The position numbers and the translations under genes are program-made. From IMG/VR virus record IMGVR_UViG_3300037558_003011, positions 1 to 39,878 of that record: a DNA stretch of 39,878 nucleotides, one strand, 5' to 3'. Under the pieces are notes generated by a model. That model worked only from the letters and a program-made list of their open reading frames with translations, was not told where the DNA came from and ran no database searches. Shown here one piece after another: positions 1,617-10,453 of the stretch (the first letter of the stretch is position 1; each line of letters opens with the position of its first letter). The stretch is from a virus.

Positions 1617-2811
1617 GGCTCTCCTGATGCGTTACGGGTTGTGTGCTGTCTTCTTCCTCTTTCTGCTCATTCACAAAGCCACGCTTCCGCAGCCAAGTTT
1701 CAATCAGGTGAGAATCTTCCTTGCGGTCAAAATTGGCCACATTCGGTGTTCGTACCTTGACCATGCGTGGACGTTTAGCATTTTCAAACTTCACCGAAAA
1801 GCTAGCGGATACCAATCTGCCAAAGTTTGGAAATTCACGATCTCTTGAGGCTAATGATGCGAAAATATCGTTTGAGCGCAGTGTTTGCTTGTCATTATAA
1901 GGCCCAAGAAACTGGTGCTGGATTTCTATCAGCTTTACATCCTCCAGTCCGTCAATATCGGCACAAGCCAAAGCATCAACGCCGTTATCGATCAGCGGCT
2001 GTAATGTATATTTTTCTGCGCCCGGAAAATATTCAGCCTGACCGAAGAGATGCTGGCTGAATAAATCCAAATACATAGTGCGCTCTTTCTTGGCACCGGA
2101 CTTGTTAAAGACGGCCAGTTCATTATTGGCGCGGTCATAGACGATCACGTCATGAAACTCCGGGCGATAAAAAATCGTCTTGGATTGTCCGGATTCAATC
2201 TTGCCCTCACGTTTGAAAGGCATGCCATGACGGATCAGGAAGTATGTCTTGTCTTCGTCCTCTGCGCTGACAGGCAAAATACGACAGCCAGTCCCGCGTT
2301 TGTTTTTCAAAAACCATGCATCCATATCCGCTTCCAGCGTTCGCATGGTCTCTGGCTTTGGAAGCGCAAATGTATCCGGGGACTTTTGATCCGACTGAAA
2401 ATACATGAATGATTTTGGTTTGAGAATCATTGCCTCTGCATGAGGGCGCTTTAAAAGCTCGGGGTCATGTAACCAAAGAGCTAAGGCCAAATCGGCTGCA
2501 GTTGAATCCTCATGCGTATCAATATTGTTGGCTTCGGCCTGTTCGCTCAGCTCTTCAAAATGCTCATCATCGGACATCTCCTGAATAAAGAACAAGGCTT
2601 CAACAAACTCGATATCCATGTCCTCGGATGGATTCATCAATACTTGGCACAGTGTTTCAAAATCCAGCTCATTATCTTCATTAAGTTCAAAGCTGAACCC
2701 GCGCCCGGTCAGGTAGCTTTCATAACGCTTAAGAAAAGTGATCAGATTATCTTGCTGGATGTGTTTCAAAACATCAGGTTGGGCAAAACGTCGTAAATTA
2801 TAAGTGCTCAT
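1585..2811 (-). CDS. Uncharacterised 408-residue protein of the lysogeny operon
   Basis: I cannot place this protein in a family. The first 150 residues are acidic and helical. The middle (about 180-330) looks like an alpha/beta core with conserved-looking blocks such as IFYRPEFHDVIVYDRANNEL and LFGQAEYFPG. A later block, KVRTPNVANFDRKEDSHLIE, precedes a C-terminal segment (WLRKRGF) and a low-complexity acidic tail. It is cytoplasmic by composition. Its ATG overlaps the repressor stop codon (ATG at 2811, repressor end at 2808), giving a coupled operon of repressor, this gene and the 367-residue gene. The tight coupling of two unknown genes to a LexA-type repressor suggests a two-component module expressed in lysogeny, for example immunity, exclusion or control of induction. 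That is inference only. Confidence 0.82.
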   Translation of the reverse strand: MSTYNLRRFAQPDVLKHIQQDNLITFLKRYESYLTGRGFSFELNEDNELDFETLCQVLMNPSEDMDIEFVEALFFIQEMSDDEHFEELSEQAEANNIDTHEDSTAADLALALWLHDPELLKRPHAEAMILKPKSFMYFQSDQKSPDTFALPKPETMRTLEADMDAWFLKNKRGTGCRILPVSAEDEDKTYFLIRHGMPFKREGKIESGQSKTIFYRPEFHDVIVYDRANNELAVFNKSGAKKERTMYLDLFSQHLFGQAEYFPGAEKYTLQPLIDNGVDALACADIDGLEDVKLIEIQHQFLGPYNDKQTLRSNDIFASLASRDREFPNFGRLVSASFSVKFENAKRPRMVKVRTPNVANFDRKEDSHLIETWLRKRGFVNEQKEEEDSTQPVTHQESHDAVSIAAMA

Positions 2812-3461
2812 TTGGTTATCCTCCTTGGGGGTTCGTCTAGGAGGGCCTCCGTGTCAACACCCGAGCAGACGTGTAAGACCTTCCCAATTATTTTAAGTTC
2901 ATCCTGTTGTCCTATGATGATGGGTTTTAGTTTCTGATTTTCAGGGCGCAGCTCAATATGCTCCCCTTCAATACTCAGCCGCTTTACAGTGGCTTCTTCG
3001 CCGACCATGGCCACAACAATATCGCTGTTTTCAGCAATTGGTTGCTGACGCACAACAACGTAATCTCCCTCGAAAATATCAGCATCAATCATGCTGTCGC
3101 CTTGCACTTTGAGGGCAAAGCACTTCCCGCGCAGAACATTATTTGGGACCATGACCTGACCAATCTTGTTTTCAACGGCAAGAATCGGTTGGCCAGCTGC
3201 AACCATTCCCAAAACAGGAACAGCCGTCAGATTGGTTTTATCCGGTGTTTGTGCGTGGAGGATTTCGATGGATCGCGCTTTTCGCGCCTGCCTGCGAATA
3301 TAGCCTTTGTCTTCCAGCCGCTTGAGCCCTTCAAACACACTGGGCGCTTTTACACCCAATTCCACAGCAAGCTCCTGTACCGTGGGTGACATCCCCATGG
3401 CACGTTTCAGGCGTTCAATGGCCTGTAATAGCGTATTCTGTGCGTTTGTCAGTTGCTCCAT
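2808..3461 (-). CDS. LexA-like self-cleaving prophage repressor (S24 family)
   Basis: A 217-residue protein with the full LexA layout. A winged helix-turn-helix (about 1-65, with SPTVQELAVELGV and SVFEGLKRLEDKGYI) is followed by an S24 peptidase domain. The cleavage site is Ala89-Gly90 in VAAGQP, the nucleophile is Ser123 in QGDSM, and the general-base lysine is Lys160 in EATVKRL. The spacing matches Escherichia coli LexA (84/85, 119, 156) within a few residues. Family knowledge: RecA filaments on damaged DNA provoke autocleavage, which releases the regulon. The gene is transcribed leftward, divergent from the integration operon, with the palindromic operator directly upstream. It therefore most likely acts as the phage CI equivalent, though a second copy of the host SOS regulator captured by the phage is possible. 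AAAGGA upstream of ATG 3461 is the RBS. Confidence 0.93.
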   Translation of the reverse strand: MEQLTNAQNTLLQAIERLKRAMGMSPTVQELAVELGVKAPSVFEGLKRLEDKGYIRRQARKARSIEILHAQTPDKTNLTAVPVLGMVAAGQPILAVENKIGQVMVPNNVLRGKCFALKVQGDSMIDADIFEGDYVVVRQQPIAENSDIVVAMVGEEATVKRLSIEGEHIELRPENQKLKPIIIGQQDELKIIGKVLHVCSGVDTEALLDEPPRRITK

Positions 3462-3553: not shown

Positions 3554-3593
3554 CCGACAGTTTTCAAGTCATTTCAGTAAGTAACTCCTTGAA
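3554..3593 (+). repeat. Early leader element, copy 1
   Basis: Forty bases beginning CCGACAGTTTT and ending GTAAGTAACTCCTTGAA match 6810-6849 at 34 of 40 positions without gaps. Both copies lie upstream of the first gene of an early operon. Five of the six differences are transitions. It may be a promoter, a protein-binding site or the 5' part of a structured leader RNA. Confidence 0.8.
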
Positions 3594-3616
3594 CGACGCA
3601 ATAATTCTCAAGGAGG
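3585..3616 (+). promoter_or_regulatory. Hairpin masking the Shine-Dalgarno of the integration operon
   Basis: CTCCTTGA (3585-3592) pairs perfectly with TCAAGGAG (3608-3615), closing a 15-nt loop. The 3' arm contains the AAGGAGG ribosome binding site of the gene starting at 3624. Folding would hide the site from 16S rRNA, so translation of the operon should depend on opening this hairpin. Confidence 0.65.
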
Positions 3617-4281: not shown

Positions 4282-5663
4282 GCACAACCACACCGAAAAA
4301 ACGCTGCGCGATTTATACGCGCAAATCTACTGAAGAAGGCTTGGACATGGAATTCAACAGCCTTGATGCTCAGCGCGAGGCTTGTGAATCCTATATTGCC
4401 TCACAAAAACATGAAGGCTGGTTCCAGCTTCCTGATGAATATGATGATGGCGGCTTTACAGGCGGCAATATGGATCGCCCGGCCTTAAAGCGTCTGATGG
4501 ACGATATCAAAAGCGGCCTGATTGATACGGTTGTTGTGTACAAGGTTGACCGCTTGTCGCGCTCCTTGGCTGATTTTGCCAAACTGATCGATCTGTTCGA
4601 TGAGCACAAAGTGTCCTTTGTCTCTGTTACCCAGCAATTCAACACCACCACATCAATGGGTCGTCTAACGCTGAATATTCTACTCAGCTTTGCCCAGTTT
4701 GAGCGTGAAGTAATTGGCGAACGCATCCGCGATAAATTGGCAGCCTCCAAACGCAAAGGCATGTGGATGGGTGGTGTCACGCCCATGGGCTATGTGGTGA
4801 AAAACCGTGAGCTTGTGATCGAGCCTGATGAGGCTGAGGGCATCCGCAAAATATTTGATCTGTTTTTGATGACCAAGTCACCCACGGAAATGGCCAAGAT
4901 GCTGCCGCGCATGGGAGTGTTAAGCAAGAAGCGTACAACAAAGAACGGACGCGTTATCGGTGGCAAGGCACTGGATAAAGGCGGTCTCTATAAAATTCTG
5001 CAAAACCCCATCTATATCGGCAAGATCAAACATAAAGATAAAATCTACGAAGGCCGCCATCCAGCCATCATCGATATGGATACGTGGAATAAAGTCCGCG
5101 CAGTCATGAAAGAAAACACCATCAACCGAGGTGCCATCACGCGTAAGAAAACCAAGGCCATTTTAATGGGGCTTTTGAAGTGCGGCGAATGCGAATGTGG
5201 ATTGGTAGCCAATCACACCCGTAAAAAAGGTGGCAGGCTTTATCGCTATTACACCTGTGAGCATTACCGCAAAGGCATCAACCCGGATTGCAAGGTTCGC
5301 AATGTCAGCGCGAATGAAATGGAGGCATTGATATTAAATCAGCTCCAAGCCGTATTTGCCGCACCAGAGATGATCATGGAAACGTGGCGAGAAGCACAAA
5401 AAGAGGATGAGACCATCACGGAGCATGAGGTTTACAGCAACCTGAATGACATTGTCCCGATCTGGAAAGAGCTTTATCCAGCTGAAAAGCAGCGCATCCT
5501 TGAGCTAATGATAGAAAAAGTCATCGTGAATTATGAGTTTGTCGACATCCGTATCAGGGCTGCAGGCATGGATAGTCTGGCCCGAGAGTTGGATGAGCAA
5601 GACAAACGGCTGCAAGGCATTTCAACCAAAAAACTGGAGGAGCAAGCATGGATAAATGCGTAA
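4278..5663 (+). CDS. Large serine recombinase (phage integrase)
   Basis: A 461-residue site-specific recombinase. The resolvase domain (about 8-155) carries the catalytic serine at position 17 in YTRKS, and the conserved VVVYKVDRLSRS and FAQFEREVIGERI segments. A recombinase domain (about 170-280) follows. A zinc ribbon has cysteines near 302, 305, 327 and 338. The end is coiled-coil-like. It would cut and rejoin attP and attB through a covalent serine link with no tRNA-like long core. It starts at TTG 4278, preceded by AAGGAGG at 4265-4271; the TTG overlaps the stop of the DUF2924 gene. A weak start codon in a coupled operon would keep integrase levels low. Confidence 0.95.
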   Translation: MSTTTPKKRCAIYTRKSTEEGLDMEFNSLDAQREACESYIASQKHEGWFQLPDEYDDGGFTGGNMDRPALKRLMDDIKSGLIDTVVVYKVDRLSRSLADFAKLIDLFDEHKVSFVSVTQQFNTTTSMGRLTLNILLSFAQFEREVIGERIRDKLAASKRKGMWMGGVTPMGYVVKNRELVIEPDEAEGIRKIFDLFLMTKSPTEMAKMLPRMGVLSKKRTTKNGRVIGGKALDKGGLYKILQNPIYIGKIKHKDKIYEGRHPAIIDMDTWNKVRAVMKENTINRGAITRKKTKAILMGLLKCGECECGLVANHTRKKGGRLYRYYTCEHYRKGINPDCKVRNVSANEMEALILNQLQAVFAAPEMIMETWREAQKEDETITEHEVYSNLNDIVPIWKELYPAEKQRILELMIEKVIVNYEFVDIRIRAAGMDSLARELDEQDKRLQGISTKKLEEQAWINA

Positions 5664-6256: not shown

Positions 6257-6805
6257 ATGAGCAAAAACAACTATGAAGGAATCCATCCTTATGTCGTAAA
6301 CCAAGTCCGTTATCACGCACGCAGCCTGATGCGGCACTCTGCCATTCATGGCGTAGAAGTCGAGGACCTCGAGCAAGAGCTAATGCTGGATTATCTATCC
6401 CGCAAGCAGGCTTATGATCCCGAAAAAGCAAAATGGTCGACCTTTGTTGACCGCATCCTCAACCACAAATGTGCCAGCCTGATTGAAGCAGCCCGCGCAC
6501 AAAAACGTGGCTCAGGCATCAGTGATTTTTCACTTGATGCATGGCTTGAGGACAAGGACGGCGAAGACAACGCTTTGCCTGATCCTGCAACCGAAGATCT
6601 GACCAGCCGCGATCTTCAAATCGACCTAGAACAAGCAGTCCAGCAGATGCCGCCACATCTGGTGTTGCTGCTGGTCGATCTGCGAACGCTCAGCATCAGT
6701 GAAATCTCACGCAAAACCAAAACTCCACGCTCAACCCTCTACGGGACGCTGTCCGAACTGCGCGGATCGCTGAAGGAGCGTGGCTTTGCGGAATATCTGC
6801 ACTGA
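6257..6805 (+). CDS. Phage sigma-70-like regulator
   Basis: A 182-residue protein with two regions like a minimal sigma factor. The N-terminal part (about 10-80) resembles region 2, with VEDLEQELMLDYLSR and WSTFVDRILNHKCASLIE. The C-terminal part (about 120-175) resembles region 4, with the helix-turn-helix LSISEISRKTKTPRSTLYGTL. The middle is acidic. It stands alone between two terminated or structured regions, so it is probably transcribed from its own promoter. The role is likely to redirect RNA polymerase to phage promoters or act as an HTH activator; the 40-nt elements at 3554 and 6810 are candidate targets. The hairpin immediately before its ATG suggests controlled translation. Confidence 0.8.
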   Translation: MSKNNYEGIHPYVVNQVRYHARSLMRHSAIHGVEVEDLEQELMLDYLSRKQAYDPEKAKWSTFVDRILNHKCASLIEAARAQKRGSGISDFSLDAWLEDKDGEDNALPDPATEDLTSRDLQIDLEQAVQQMPPHLVLLLVDLRTLSISEISRKTKTPRSTLYGTLSELRGSLKERGFAEYLH

Positions 6806-6809
6806 GCCG

Positions 6810-6849
6810 CCGACAGTTTTTGAGCCCTCTCGGTAAGTAACTCCTTGAA
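6810..6849 (+). repeat. Early leader element, copy 2
   Basis: Second copy of the 40-nt element, matching 3554-3593 at 34 of 40 positions. It begins 5 bases after the stop of the sigma-like gene and leads into the structured leader of the replication operon. Confidence 0.8.
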
Positions 6850-6995
6850 GGCAAGAAAACATGCCGGGTTCTCGCGGAAATACAAGACCTGAATCAGGAA
6901 ATACCGCGACCGCTTTGCTCTTTGGGCGGCGTCAGAACCCGGCAGCCGAAACGACACGACCAAAGAGCAAATTTTAACCCACGAAATCAAGGAGG
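6841..6995 (+). ncRNA. Candidate structured leader RNA with pseudoknot, upstream of the replication operon
   Basis: An outer stem pairs CTCCTTGA (6841-6848) with TCAAGGAG (6987-6994), which contains the ribosome binding site of the gene at 7000. Inside, TGCCGGGTTCT (6862-6872) pairs with AGAACCCGGCA (6934-6944) and closes a junction of two arms. One arm is CGCGG/CCGCG (6873-6877, 6904-6908) capped by CCTG-AAT-CAGG. The other is CCGC/GCGG (6910-6913, 6926-6929). The whole 12-nt loop of the second arm (6914-6925) is complementary to 6960-6971, outside the junction, which makes a pseudoknot. No reading frame fits here. It could be a cis-regulatory RNA or a protein-sensing leader. I do not recognise it as a known riboswitch class. 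Confidence 0.6.
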
Positions 6996-6999
6996 TTTC

Positions 7000-7293
7000 A
7001 TGTTTAAACCATCGTTACAAAAGCTGATTAAAGACAGCTACTACGCCAAACATGTTCCGGCATTTATTCAAATTCCAGAGCTTGGTGCCATAGAAGAAGA
7101 CACCACCAAACCAATCCATGAGGCAACTCTGGATGATCTGGCCTTTGCCGCACAGGCTTTGGATAAAGAACAAAGCGCCATTTACAAGCGCTTGTCTGCC
7201 ATCCGTGAGCTTTATACGGAAGCACGTTCCAAAGGCGCATTAGGCGCTGAAAACATTGTGGACGCACTCTCCCGCAAAGGAGGTGCCCAATGA
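7000..7293 (+). CDS. Hypothetical phage protein, first gene of the replication operon
   Basis: A 97-residue soluble protein without a recognised domain. The second half is a predicted helical pair (LDDLAFAAQALDKEQSAIYKRLSAIRELYTEAR) that may form a coiled coil. ATG 7000 is preceded by TCAAGGAGG at a 4-base spacing, so I prefer it to an in-frame TTG at 6922 that would lie inside the leader structure. It overlaps the next gene by 4 nt. Position suggests a partner of the Sak4-like ATPase that follows. Confidence 0.8.
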   Translation: MFKPSLQKLIKDSYYAKHVPAFIQIPELGAIEEDTTKPIHEATLDDLAFAAQALDKEQSAIYKRLSAIRELYTEARSKGALGAENIVDALSRKGGAQ

Positions 7294-8189
7294 GCCTTCC
7301 TATCATCTCAGCCGATGAACGCTTGAAAGAAACCAAGGGCATTAAAGGGTGCATCTTCGGTAAAAGCGGTATCGGCAAAACATCACTGCTCTGGACGCTT
7401 CCCGCTGAAAAGACACTGTTCTTTGATCTTGAGGCTGGCGATCTGGCTATCGAAGGTTGGCAAGGCGATACCATCCGTCCGCGCACATGGCAGGACTGCC
7501 GTGATATTGCAGCCTTTATTGGCGGTCCAAACCCGGCTTTGCGTGATGAGCAGCCTTACAGCCAAGCCCATTATGATGCCGTCACGGCCAAGTATGGTGA
7601 TGCCGGAGCGCTAGATAAATACGACACGATCTTCATCGACAGTATCACCGTTGCGGGACGCTTGTGTTTCAACTGGTGCAAGGGCCAACCACAGGCATTT
7701 TCTGACAAAACAGGCAAACCCGACACACGTGGTGCTTACGGCCTGCATGGTCAGGAAATGATCGCGTGGCTTACGCATCTACAACACACACGCGGCAAGA
7801 ATATCTGGTTTGTCGGCATCTTGGACGAAAAGATCGACGATTTTAATCGCCGTTTCTTCCAGCCGCAAATTGAAGGCAGCAAAACCGCATTAGAGCTTCC
7901 CGGCATTGTCGATCAGGTCATCACCATGACCGAGATGACAAGCCCCGATGGCAAGTCATTCCGCGCCTTTATCTGCCACACCATCAATGATGCCGGATAT
8001 CCAGCCAAGGATCGCTCCGGTCGTCTTGATCTGATGGAAGAACCACATCTTGGCCGCCTCATGCAGAAGATTGCAGGCAAAGCCAAGCCTGCTGCCGAAC
8101 GCCTCACGTTCTCAATTGAACAGGACGCGCCTGCCAGCAGCACCCCTGATTCCCAACACAACAACGAAACACAAGGAGACCAAGAATGA
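7290..8189 (+). CDS. Sak4-like RecA-fold ATPase (recombination mediator)
   Basis: A 299-residue ATP-binding protein. Walker A is GKSGIGKTS at about 24-32 and Walker B is YDTIFIDSITVAG near 110. The core belongs to the phage AAA_24/Sak4 group of RecA-like single-strand annealing ATPases. The last 30 residues are polar and disordered. It starts with ATGA overlap on the preceding gene and ends with the same overlap on the next one. Its neighbour encodes a probable ssDNA-binding protein, and Sak4 proteins typically need such a partner. The expected role is annealing or strand exchange during phage replication. Confidence 0.85.
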   Translation: MSLPIISADERLKETKGIKGCIFGKSGIGKTSLLWTLPAEKTLFFDLEAGDLAIEGWQGDTIRPRTWQDCRDIAAFIGGPNPALRDEQPYSQAHYDAVTAKYGDAGALDKYDTIFIDSITVAGRLCFNWCKGQPQAFSDKTGKPDTRGAYGLHGQEMIAWLTHLQHTRGKNIWFVGILDEKIDDFNRRFFQPQIEGSKTALELPGIVDQVITMTEMTSPDGKSFRAFICHTINDAGYPAKDRSGRLDLMEEPHLGRLMQKIAGKAKPAAERLTFSIEQDAPASSTPDSQHNNETQGDQE

Positions 8190-8776
8190 GTTGGAACGAT
8201 TTTAATAGTGCAGATGATCAAAGCGGATTTGATGTCATCCCCAAAGGAACGCTGGCTAAGGTCCGTATGACCATTAAGCCCGGTGGCCATGATGATGCAT
8301 CACAAGGCTGGACGGGTGGCTGGGCCACGCGCAGCAATACCACAGGTGCCGTCTATTTGAACTGTGAATTTGTGGTGCTGGAAGGCAAATATGCCCGCCG
8401 CAAAATCTGGAGCCTGATCGGGCTTTATAGTGCCAAAGGACCGGACTGGGCTAATATTGGCCGCGCCTTTATCAAAGGGATATTGAACTCCTCTCGCGGC
8501 GTGTCCAACAAGGATAATTCGCCAGCCGCCCAGAATGCTCGCCGTATCAACGGCCTTGGTGATCTGGATGGCGTCGAGTTTGTAGCTCGGATTGATATTG
8601 AGAAAGATCAAAACGGTGACGACAAGAACGTCATCAAACTGGCTATCACACCGGACAACAAGGAATACGCCTCTCTCATGGGCGCTGTATCCGGTGCGGC
8701 TTCTGCGCCTCAGTCCAATAGTGATCAGTCCGCATCTGCGAGTTCTGCCAGCAACCTGCCGTCATGGGCGCAATGA
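8186..8776 (+). CDS. Probable phage single-strand DNA-binding protein (DUF669-like)
   Basis: A 196-residue protein with a beta-rich core and a flexible Ala/Ser-rich tail (SGAASAPQSNSDQSASASSA) ending in NLPSWAQ, the architecture of an SSB with a partner-binding tip. Core segments include AKVRMTIKPGG, YLNCEFVVLEGKYARRKIW and GVEFVARIDIEKD, similar to phage DUF669-type proteins. Coupling to the Sak4-like ATPase gene (4-nt overlap) supports the role. The assignment rests on layout and context rather than a sure sequence motif. Confidence 0.65.
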   Translation: MSWNDFNSADDQSGFDVIPKGTLAKVRMTIKPGGHDDASQGWTGGWATRSNTTGAVYLNCEFVVLEGKYARRKIWSLIGLYSAKGPDWANIGRAFIKGILNSSRGVSNKDNSPAAQNARRINGLGDLDGVEFVARIDIEKDQNGDDKNVIKLAITPDNKEYASLMGAVSGAASAPQSNSDQSASASSASNLPSWAQ

Positions 8777-8788
8777 TAAGGGGGCGGC

Positions 8789-10453
8789 ATGTTACTCAGA
8801 CCAAGACAAAAGGAGCTCGTCTCCAAGACTGTTGATGCGCTTTACACCCACGGCAACACGCTAGCGGTCGCACCAACAGGTGCAGGCAAGACGATCATGC
8901 TATCAGCAGTGCTGGGACGCATGTTTGACCGCGATATTGAGCGTGCCTGCGTGCTTGCTCACCGTGATGAGCTGACCTTTCAAAATGAAGGCAAGTTCAA
9001 GCGCGTAAACCCATCCATTTCCACCAGTATTTTTAATGCGAATGAGAAAAGTTGGGATGGCCAAGTGGCCTTTGCCATGGTGCAAACCCTCTCGCGGGAG
9101 AGCAATCTGCGCTCATTGCCATCGCTGGATGCGTTGGTGATTGATGAAGCCCATCATGCCAGAGCCGACAGCTATATGCGGGTGATTGAGCACGCTCAAA
9201 ACATCAATCCAAACATGAAGCTTCTGGGCATGACCGCCACGCCGAACCGTGGTGATAAAAAAGGTCTGCGCCCGATATTCTCCAACGTGTCGGACCAGAT
9301 CACGGTCAAAGAGCTGATCGCTTCCGGTCACCTTGTGCCGCCGCGCACCTTTGTCATGAATGTCGGTGTTCAGGAAGAGCTGAGTAAAGTCCGTAAAACT
9401 GCCCTTGATTATGATATGGGCGCGGTTGCCGACATCATGAACACCCGCCCGATCAATGATGCGGTGGTTCAGCACTGGAAGGAAAAAGCCGGAGACCGTC
9501 AAACCGTCGTATTTTGCTCAACCGTCGAGCATGCGCGAGATGTCATGGCCAGCTTTATCAGTGCAGGCATTGCCACAGGCATGATCTGGGGTGATATGAG
9601 TGAAACAGATCGCGCTGATACCTTGGCAGCTTACGGCAAAGGCGATCTGCAAGTCATCGTGAATGTCGCGGTACTGACTGAAGGCTGGGATCACCCGCCA
9701 ACATCCTGCATCGTTTTACTGCGACCAAGTTCCTACAAATCCACAATGATCCAGATGATTGGGCGTGGGTTGCGAACAGTCGACCCGGCTGAGTTCCCCG
9801 GCATCATTAAAAAAGACTGCGTTGTGCTGGACTTCGGCACATCGACACTGATGCATGGCTCGCTGGAACAGGAAGTCCAGCTGGATGATCAGTTTATTGA
9901 AGGTGATGCGCCCTATAAAGACTGCCCGGAATGCGGCGCTGATGTGCCGCTCGCCAGTAAGGAATGTCCGCTATGTGGCTATATCTGGGAAGGACAGCCA
10001 GAGGCTGACACCACGCAGACCGCCGATTTCCACATGACGGAGATCGACATTCTCAAACGCTCCAGCTTCCTTTGGTGCGATTTGCGTGGTGATGATCAGT
10101 ATTTCATTGCAACCGGCTTTGAGGCTTGGGGCGGCGTCTTTTACCGCGATGGCGAATGGTACGCCGTTGGTGGTCGCAAAAACCATGCGGTTAAGCTCTT
10201 GGCTGCGGGTGAACGTATTGTGTGCTTCGCCGCTGCCGATGACTGGATTAACCTGTTTGAAACCGAAAGCGCTGCTCACAAAACCAAGAACTGGTTGCAC
10301 CAGCCTGCCACCGAAAAACAGCTGCGTCATCTTCCTCCTGAATACCGCAATGATTACAGCCTGACCCGTTACAAGGCATCCGCGCTGATGACCATGCGGT
10401 TTAACAACACGGCCATCCGTCAGGTCATTGAAAACGGGAGGATCGCCGCATGA
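8789..10453 (+). CDS. SF2 DEAD/DEAH-type helicase with zinc finger
   Basis: A 554-residue superfamily 2 helicase. Motif I is APTGAGKT (28-35), motif II is IDEAHHA, motif III is GMTATP and motif VI is QMIGRGLR. Between motifs lie the usual VFCSTVEHA (Ia/IV region) and LTEGWDHPP (V). After the core, CPECG and CPLCG form a four-cysteine zinc knuckle. The last 150 residues are an unassigned C-terminal domain. The RBS is GGGGGCGG before ATG 8789. It resembles phage UvsW/RadD-like helicases and would unwind or remodel replication and recombination intermediates. Confidence 0.93.
   Translation: MLLRPRQKELVSKTVDALYTHGNTLAVAPTGAGKTIMLSAVLGRMFDRDIERACVLAHRDELTFQNEGKFKRVNPSISTSIFNANEKSWDGQVAFAMVQTLSRESNLRSLPSLDALVIDEAHHARADSYMRVIEHAQNINPNMKLLGMTATPNRGDKKGLRPIFSNVSDQITVKELIASGHLVPPRTFVMNVGVQEELSKVRKTALDYDMGAVADIMNTRPINDAVVQHWKEKAGDRQTVVFCSTVEHARDVMASFISAGIATGMIWGDMSETDRADTLAAYGKGDLQVIVNVAVLTEGWDHPPTSCIVLLRPSSYKSTMIQMIGRGLRTVDPAEFPGIIKKDCVVLDFGTSTLMHGSLEQEVQLDDQFIEGDAPYKDCPECGADVPLASKECPLCGYIWEGQPEADTTQTADFHMTEIDILKRSSFLWCDLRGDDQYFIATGFEAWGGVFYRDGEWYAVGGRKNHAVKLLAAGERIVCFAAADDWINLFETESAAHKTKNWLHQPATEKQLRHLPPEYRNDYSLTRYKASALMTMRFNNTAIRQVIENGRIAA

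Follow-up and report, generated by a model that had tools for sequence, protein, structure and literature searches.

This work identified an RNA (about positions 6862-6947) in the leader of the early replication operon of a 39,878-base IMG/VR virus record, the whole of which is called the window hereafter. Judged by its sequence, this RNA is a diverged relative of sRNA-Xcc1 (RF02221) and not a riboswitch-like orphan. We class the leader as a variant among antisense leaders of the c4/sRNA-Xcc1 kind, and its RNA very probably regulates the early replication operon. c4 is the immunity antisense RNA of phage P1, where RNase P yields an RNA of ~77 nt. We consider it probable that the window RNA is a diverged, cis-encoded antisense RNA of the sRNA-Xcc1 type that acts on its own operon, like P1 c4 and the CI RNA of phage P4. 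An earlier note on this DNA had described a pseudoknotted leader that hides the ribosome binding site and senses a ligand or a phage protein. The RNA is real, and comparison bears out a structured RNA in the leader of the early replication operon, one loop of which pairs outside the junction, but the mechanism had been mis-assigned: the loop of the supposed pseudoknot is the antisense loop in the related family.

A three-helix RNA in the leader

All the features of the leader and operon described here, the sigma-factor-like gene and the region at 3556-3615 lie on the plus strand. Twenty distinct window-type leaders were gathered and aligned (alignment A1). In the window, the fold of the leader region beats those of 200 dinucleotide shuffles (z -3.8). 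All the pairings listed in the earlier note are present: an outer stem of 8 bp (6841-6848/6987-6994), an 11-bp stem (6862-6872/6934-6944, P1), two arms within its junction (6873-6877/6904-6908, P2, and 6910-6913/6926-6929, P3) and the perfect complementarity of the P3 loop (6914-6925) to 6960-6971, outside the junction. The assertion that they exceed chance holds for P1 and the arms (covariation) and for the loop match (shuffles), but not for the outer stem, which does no better than slid controls.

The P1/P2/P3 core has 98.0% of its cells paired in the 20 leaders, with 9 of its 20 pairs changed on both sides; its covariation was reached by 0/500 shuffles, and slid controls were 33-46% paired. 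P1 (5′ strand 6862-6872, 3′ strand 6934-6944) is paired in 98.2% of the cells and shows double changes at 6 of its 11 pairs, for example TGCCGGGTTCT/AGAACCCGGCA versus TGTCGGGCCTT/AAGGCCCGACA in leader L139. P2 (5′ strand CGCGG, 6873-6877; 3′ strand 6904-6908) is paired in 96% of the cells and has two doubly changed pairs out of five, CGCGG/CCGCG being replaced by CGGGG/CCCCG in L138 and by TGCGG/CCGCA in L141. By this covariation among aligned sequences, P1 and P2 are real RNA helices. The P3 hairpin (6910-6929) has its stem paired in 100% of the cells, and its loop occupies the position of the antisense loop b′ of sRNA-Xcc1 and c4. The J strand (6930-6933) lies at the position of a′ in these two RNAs, and only about 3 nt of it can pair. 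P2 encloses a conserved core, AAATACAAGACC...AGGAAATA (6878-6903), made of an internal loop and a short hairpin, which is a signature common to sRNA-Xcc1. This AAUACAA...GAAUA core, present in all sRNA-Xcc1 RNAs, is conserved far beyond the needs of antisense pairing; a protein or a tertiary contact may bind it.

An AUG stands at the 5′ foot of P1 (6861-6863) in window-type leaders and in all the sRNA-Xcc1 rows used for our model. It is equivalent to the AU/G cleavage site of RNase P in phage P1 c4, and an RNase P-like cleavage may occur there in the window. On the 3′ side, P1 is followed by GC (GGCAGC) where the sRNA-Xcc1 family has RCC. The region had been said to contain no reading frame; although an ORF that starts at the ATG at 6861 stays open in the window up to about 6977, the statement is right in effect. 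A coding leader was rejected, the ORF being frame-shifted in relatives (e.g., its frame is lost in L006).

Kinship with sRNA-Xcc1

No known riboswitch or leader matched the window leader in Rfam at gathering thresholds, and no DNA similar to it was found within the phage collection. A permissive Rfam scan, which likewise gave no riboswitch, matched sRNA-Xcc1 at 6862-6952 with 41.4 bits (E = 3e-6), which is below the RF02221 gathering cut-off of 53 bits; leaders L135 and L150 also matched RF02221 (E 0.001-0.003). Matches to SNORA43 and mir-4677 in the same permissive scan lie on the minus strand and were judged to be due to chance. A covariance model (R1) was built from 25 phage sRNA-Xcc1 RNAs (99.6% of cells paired) that included no window-type sequence. 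In a search of 212 kb, R1 matched the window leader with 35.1 bits (E = 9e-9) and all 16 other window-type leader loci searched (the weakest being L171, E = 0.0025) and had no other match, including in phage P1 and in three operon relatives that lack the RNA (L007, L211 and L212); its next best match within 12 kb scored 9.2 bits. Because R1 finds window-type leaders and nothing else in these 212 kb, we consider the window RNA to be a diverged relative of sRNA-Xcc1, of which it has the P1/P2/P3 structure with the AAUACAA core.

The two RNAs share the P1-P2-P3 architecture, the AAUACAA...GAAUA core, the AUG at the foot of P1 and complementarity between the P3 loop and the adjoining downstream gene's leader. 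However, the strong loop target in the window lies upstream of the Shine-Dalgarno sequence and is not accompanied by a target for a′ (J), the 3′ motif is AGC instead of RCC, the loop is nearly invariant, and the gene that follows belongs to a replication/recombination operon instead of encoding an anti-repressor.

The sRNA-Xcc1 family

A signature search of IMG/VR revealed more than 100 sRNA-Xcc1-like places, and 17 of the 20 such loci that were scanned pass the Rfam cut-off. The RNAs are also present in 58 of the 398 sampled genomes of the phylum. Most of the examined family loci directly precede anti-repressor genes (KilA-N/BRO/Ant kinds); in the E. coli phage Rac-SA53, the gene after the sRNA-Xcc1 RNA is annotated ant. 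The sequence of the P3 loop in the family changes between phages and is complementary to the region around the next gene's Shine-Dalgarno; the J strand, which joins P3 to P1, has its match immediately upstream of the loop target. In L009, for instance, the loop CTCGTTGA is complementary to TCAACGAG, 6 nt before the ATG, and the J strand TTCGAA to another TTCGAA.

Ranking of the cognate leader against all leaders by duplex energy was uninformative because all targets share an SD-like sequence, and it was replaced by helix-length tests with permutations. For 80 viral RNAs, the longest Watson-Crick helix between loop and leader has a median of 7 nt with the cognate leader versus 4 with other leaders, and the helix between J and the upstream site a median of 6 nt versus 4. 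None of 2000 permutations reached the cognate means (80 viral loci, 62 distinct loops), and the result was replicated in a separate data set of 15 RNAs from other bacterial genomes (0/5000 permutations). This comparison of about 95 relatives suggests that the whole family works like P1 c4, i.e., that the loop would pair with the message of the neighboring gene and keep this gene off.

Four sRNA-Xcc1 RNAs from bacterial genomes (L242, L252, L253 and L263) precede short genes that do not look like anti-repressor genes, with a loop/SD complementarity of 7-8 nt; the proteins of L252 and L253 have no Pfam match. The sRNA-Xcc1 module may therefore guard genes other than anti-repressors too. In the literature, sRNA-Xcc1 is a discrete 88-nt RNA of Xanthomonas (PMC2996969) that is termed trans-acting with many predicted targets (PMC2996969, PMC12189769) and treated as a virulence-linked sRNA with hundreds of predicted targets (PMC12189769). 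Its location upstream of symE in Xanthomonas integrons has been noted as divergent, with an unexplained mechanism (PMC12444791). Our incomplete check of the literature found no paper giving sRNA-Xcc1 a c4-like two-site antisense role and none joining it with anti-repressors.

Complementarity of the P3 loop to the operon leader

The strongest partner of the P3 loop in the window is site U (6960-6971), its perfect 12-nt complement, which is followed by UUUU; none of 1000 leader shuffles gave as good a match. The loop-U helix keeps 8-13 bp in 16 of the 20 leaders. Leaders L137, L139 and L140 have a weaker, GU-rich equivalent of site U, and L171 keeps the RNA and has no site U. Comparison of the relatives revealed covariation in the 11-bp stem and the arms, none above slid controls in the outer stem, and a loop-U helix that is nearly invariant; with so little variation in loop and site, covariation speaks neither for nor against this helix. 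A second possible partner is the Shine-Dalgarno sequence itself (TCAAGGAGG, 6987-6995), with which the loop can form 8 bp (2 GU) in the window and 9-10 bp in L137, L139, L140 and L189. This match ranks only second among 36 start sites of the window and is only modestly above background. No convincing partner of the J strand (a′) was found in the window leader, and the second contact is missing. Elsewhere in the window, the P3 loop can pair over 10 bp, GU included, with the SD region of gene 5648 (5624-5647), which is more than with the Shine-Dalgarno of gene 7000; this is possibly a second target or chance.

Site U stops 28 nt short of the ATG of gene 7000 and does not overlap the Shine-Dalgarno. 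Therefore, direct blocking of the latter by the loop-U helix is unlikely. In the antisense reading, a short RNA would accumulate, released by cleavage at its 5′ AUG in the way that RNase P releases c4, and would pair in trans with new leader transcripts; this pairing would lower the translation or the transcript elongation of the replication/recombination operon. The loop-U helix could interfere with ribosome standby or with elongation, or could cause termination at the U-run found in most leaders. As a result, the prophage would stay quiet or the cell would be immune to relatives. Such antisense control of the window operon is our interpretation of the sequence comparisons.

Folding predicts a bistable nascent leader, a property that could time a switch. 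When folded from about 6847, a loop:U hairpin (-47.9 kcal/mol) competes with P1/P2/P3 (-47.0 kcal/mol), where the loop is free; when folded from the G of the AUG (6863), P1/P2/P3 is favored. The near-equality of these two energies, together with the 3-6 U that follow site U in 16 of the 20 leaders, would also suit a purely cis-acting attenuator, in which P1/P2/P3 alternates with a loop:U hairpin that forms a transcription terminator with the U-run, no trans RNA being involved. We consider this unlikely: the U-run is absent in L137, L139 and L140, L171 has a T8 run and no U site, the loop of the terminator-like hairpin exceeds 30 nt, and relatives in the family make a discrete sRNA (PMC2996969).

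The operon and its promoter-like element

The first gene of the operon (7000-7293) encodes a 97-aa protein of unknown function (phrog_36009), with near-identical copies of the gene in L209, a genome of Pseudovibrio, and in further genomes, most of which are alphaproteobacterial. The operon body (7290-10453) encodes a Sak4-like/AAA_24 ATPase (7290-8189), a phrog_2300 protein (8186-8776) and a helicase (8789-10453). A gene encoding a sigma-factor-like protein of 182 aa (6257-6805; PHROG sigma factor, E = 2e-10; weak Sigma70_r2) lies immediately upstream of the RNA in the window. Such a gene is found upstream of the RNA in 21 out of 21 RNA-bearing loci, with 34-100% identity; among the RNA-less relatives, L214 alone gave a (partial) match to it. 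A scan predicted no sigma-70 promoter. A promoter-like element, GACAG-N16-GTAAGTAA(C), located at 6812-6841 between this gene and the RNA, is conserved among the leaders, where its spacing is fixed. The window contains only one more mismatch-free copy, at 3556-3584, before an operon encoding a DUF2924 protein and a serine recombinase. These observations suggest, without proof, that the sigma-factor-like protein drives both operons from the two elements.

The gene content around the RNA varies between loci. In L007, L211 and L212, which have no RNA, a small excisionase/HTH-like gene occupies the same place upstream of the 97-aa gene, an arrangement that is an RNA-for-protein module swap. In L134, L137, L139, L140 and L189, the leader with the RNA and the 97-aa gene are separated by an inserted small gene of another kind, so the first gene changes without displacing the RNA. 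The left end of the window carries a tRNA-Ser gene (173-262) and a LexA-like gene (2808-3461), and is possibly the host flank of a prophage.

The outer stem over the Shine-Dalgarno

The 5′ strand of the outer stem, CTCCTTGA (6841-6848; partner 6987-6994), is complementary to its partner only in the window and its close relatives. Compensatory changes in 6841-6848/6987-6994 were sought in the 20 leaders and none was found beyond slid controls, the covariation score of the stem (0.153) being equal to theirs (0.154-0.163). For the majority of its pairs, 5 to 9 of the 20 leaders cannot form the pair, and divergent relatives lose the stem. When the outer strand is left out, most of the Shine-Dalgarno is largely unpaired in the predicted fold.

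One argument that we had raised against the stem, namely that 6841-6848 would lie upstream of the transcription start and thus outside the RNA, is weakened by the sister promoter. The second promoter-like copy is part of a region (3556-3615) in which CTCCTTGA and TCAAGGAG form a simple hairpin that covers the Shine-Dalgarno of ORF 3624; this hairpin is kept through double changes in L222 (CCCCATG/TGTGGGG) and through changes of spacer length in L216. Because this covarying hairpin includes the same CTCCTTGA, the transcription start may lie upstream of CTCCTTGA. The outer stem was thus judged on its conservation and not on an assumed transcription start.

The covarying hairpin at 3556 also implies that a 5′ anti-SD device exists in the window phage. 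It lends some weight to the cis-acting riboswitch or protein-sensing leader of the earlier note, with its RBS-hiding pseudoknot, as do the presence of the outer stem and loop pairing in the window and the AAUACAA core, which could be a binding site. This reading is nevertheless improbable, as the outer stem is not conserved, most of the Shine-Dalgarno is predicted to be largely unpaired without the outer strand, and the RNA is akin to a family of the antisense type in which the loop follows the RBS of the neighboring gene.

Comparison with antisense RNAs of phages P1 and P4

Very improbable, in our view, is a trans-acting sRNA with its main targets elsewhere (host or other phage genes) and a secondary link to the operon, for although the literature calls sRNA-Xcc1 trans-acting and the SD of gene 5648 pairs with the loop over 10 bp (with GU), the RNA stays directly before the operon also in the five loci with an inserted gene, where the first gene is a different one, and the loop-U match is kept.

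The antisense reading has precedents in two phages. The P1 record marks C4 with its target sites a2 and b2 before icd, the c4 RNA starting at the G of an AUG, and the two-site layout of the sRNA-Xcc1 family (loop at the SD, J just upstream) is that of P1 c4. Like C4 (RF01695, phages P1/P7), the window RNA has its loop b′ in P3, is encoded within the leader that it would target, carries at P1 the AUG at which c4 is cleaved and has a putative target near the start codon. In contrast, c4 is devoid of the AAUACAA core and has the second contact a′, and it guards icd/ant, whereas the window RNA precedes replication genes. The window has the AUG at the foot of P1 and not the RCC 3′ motif (AGC beside the presumed RNase P site). 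The C4 model gave no match in the window region with a threshold as loose as E ≤ 10, the C4 and sRNA-Xcc1 models do not find each other, and the two families belong to no common clan in Rfam. Since there is neither a common clan nor a cross-model match, common descent of C4 and sRNA-Xcc1 is not claimed.

The CI antisense RNA of satellite phage P4 confers immunity by silencing the replication genes through antisense-directed termination of the replication operon (PMC4825925). Like CI, the window RNA would be processed from the leader of a replication operon and would silence that operon by antisense action, but the target sites of P4 flank CI on both sides. Model R1 has no match in P4, and the likeness of the window RNA to CI would be one of function only.

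Beyond the window, we propose that sRNA-Xcc1 is a widespread c4-like two-site antisense module guarding the adjoining gene (phage anti-repressors, symE-type integron cassettes and others), and that rewiring gave rise to the branch of the window clade, in which a phage sigma factor drives the RNA and one loop with two tandem leader sites controls a replication operon; we regard the case for and against this broad proposal as evenly balanced. As a by-product, which is the more important outcome, this work offers a function for the sRNA-Xcc1 family that can be tested. If the loop of sRNA-Xcc1 is antisense to the RBS of the next gene, targets could be read straight from the sequence. If true, phage c4 would be joined by sRNA-Xcc1 as a second large family with this mode of action, and the window would provide an example of such an RNA controlling phage DNA replication, as does P4 CI, in Alphaproteobacteria.
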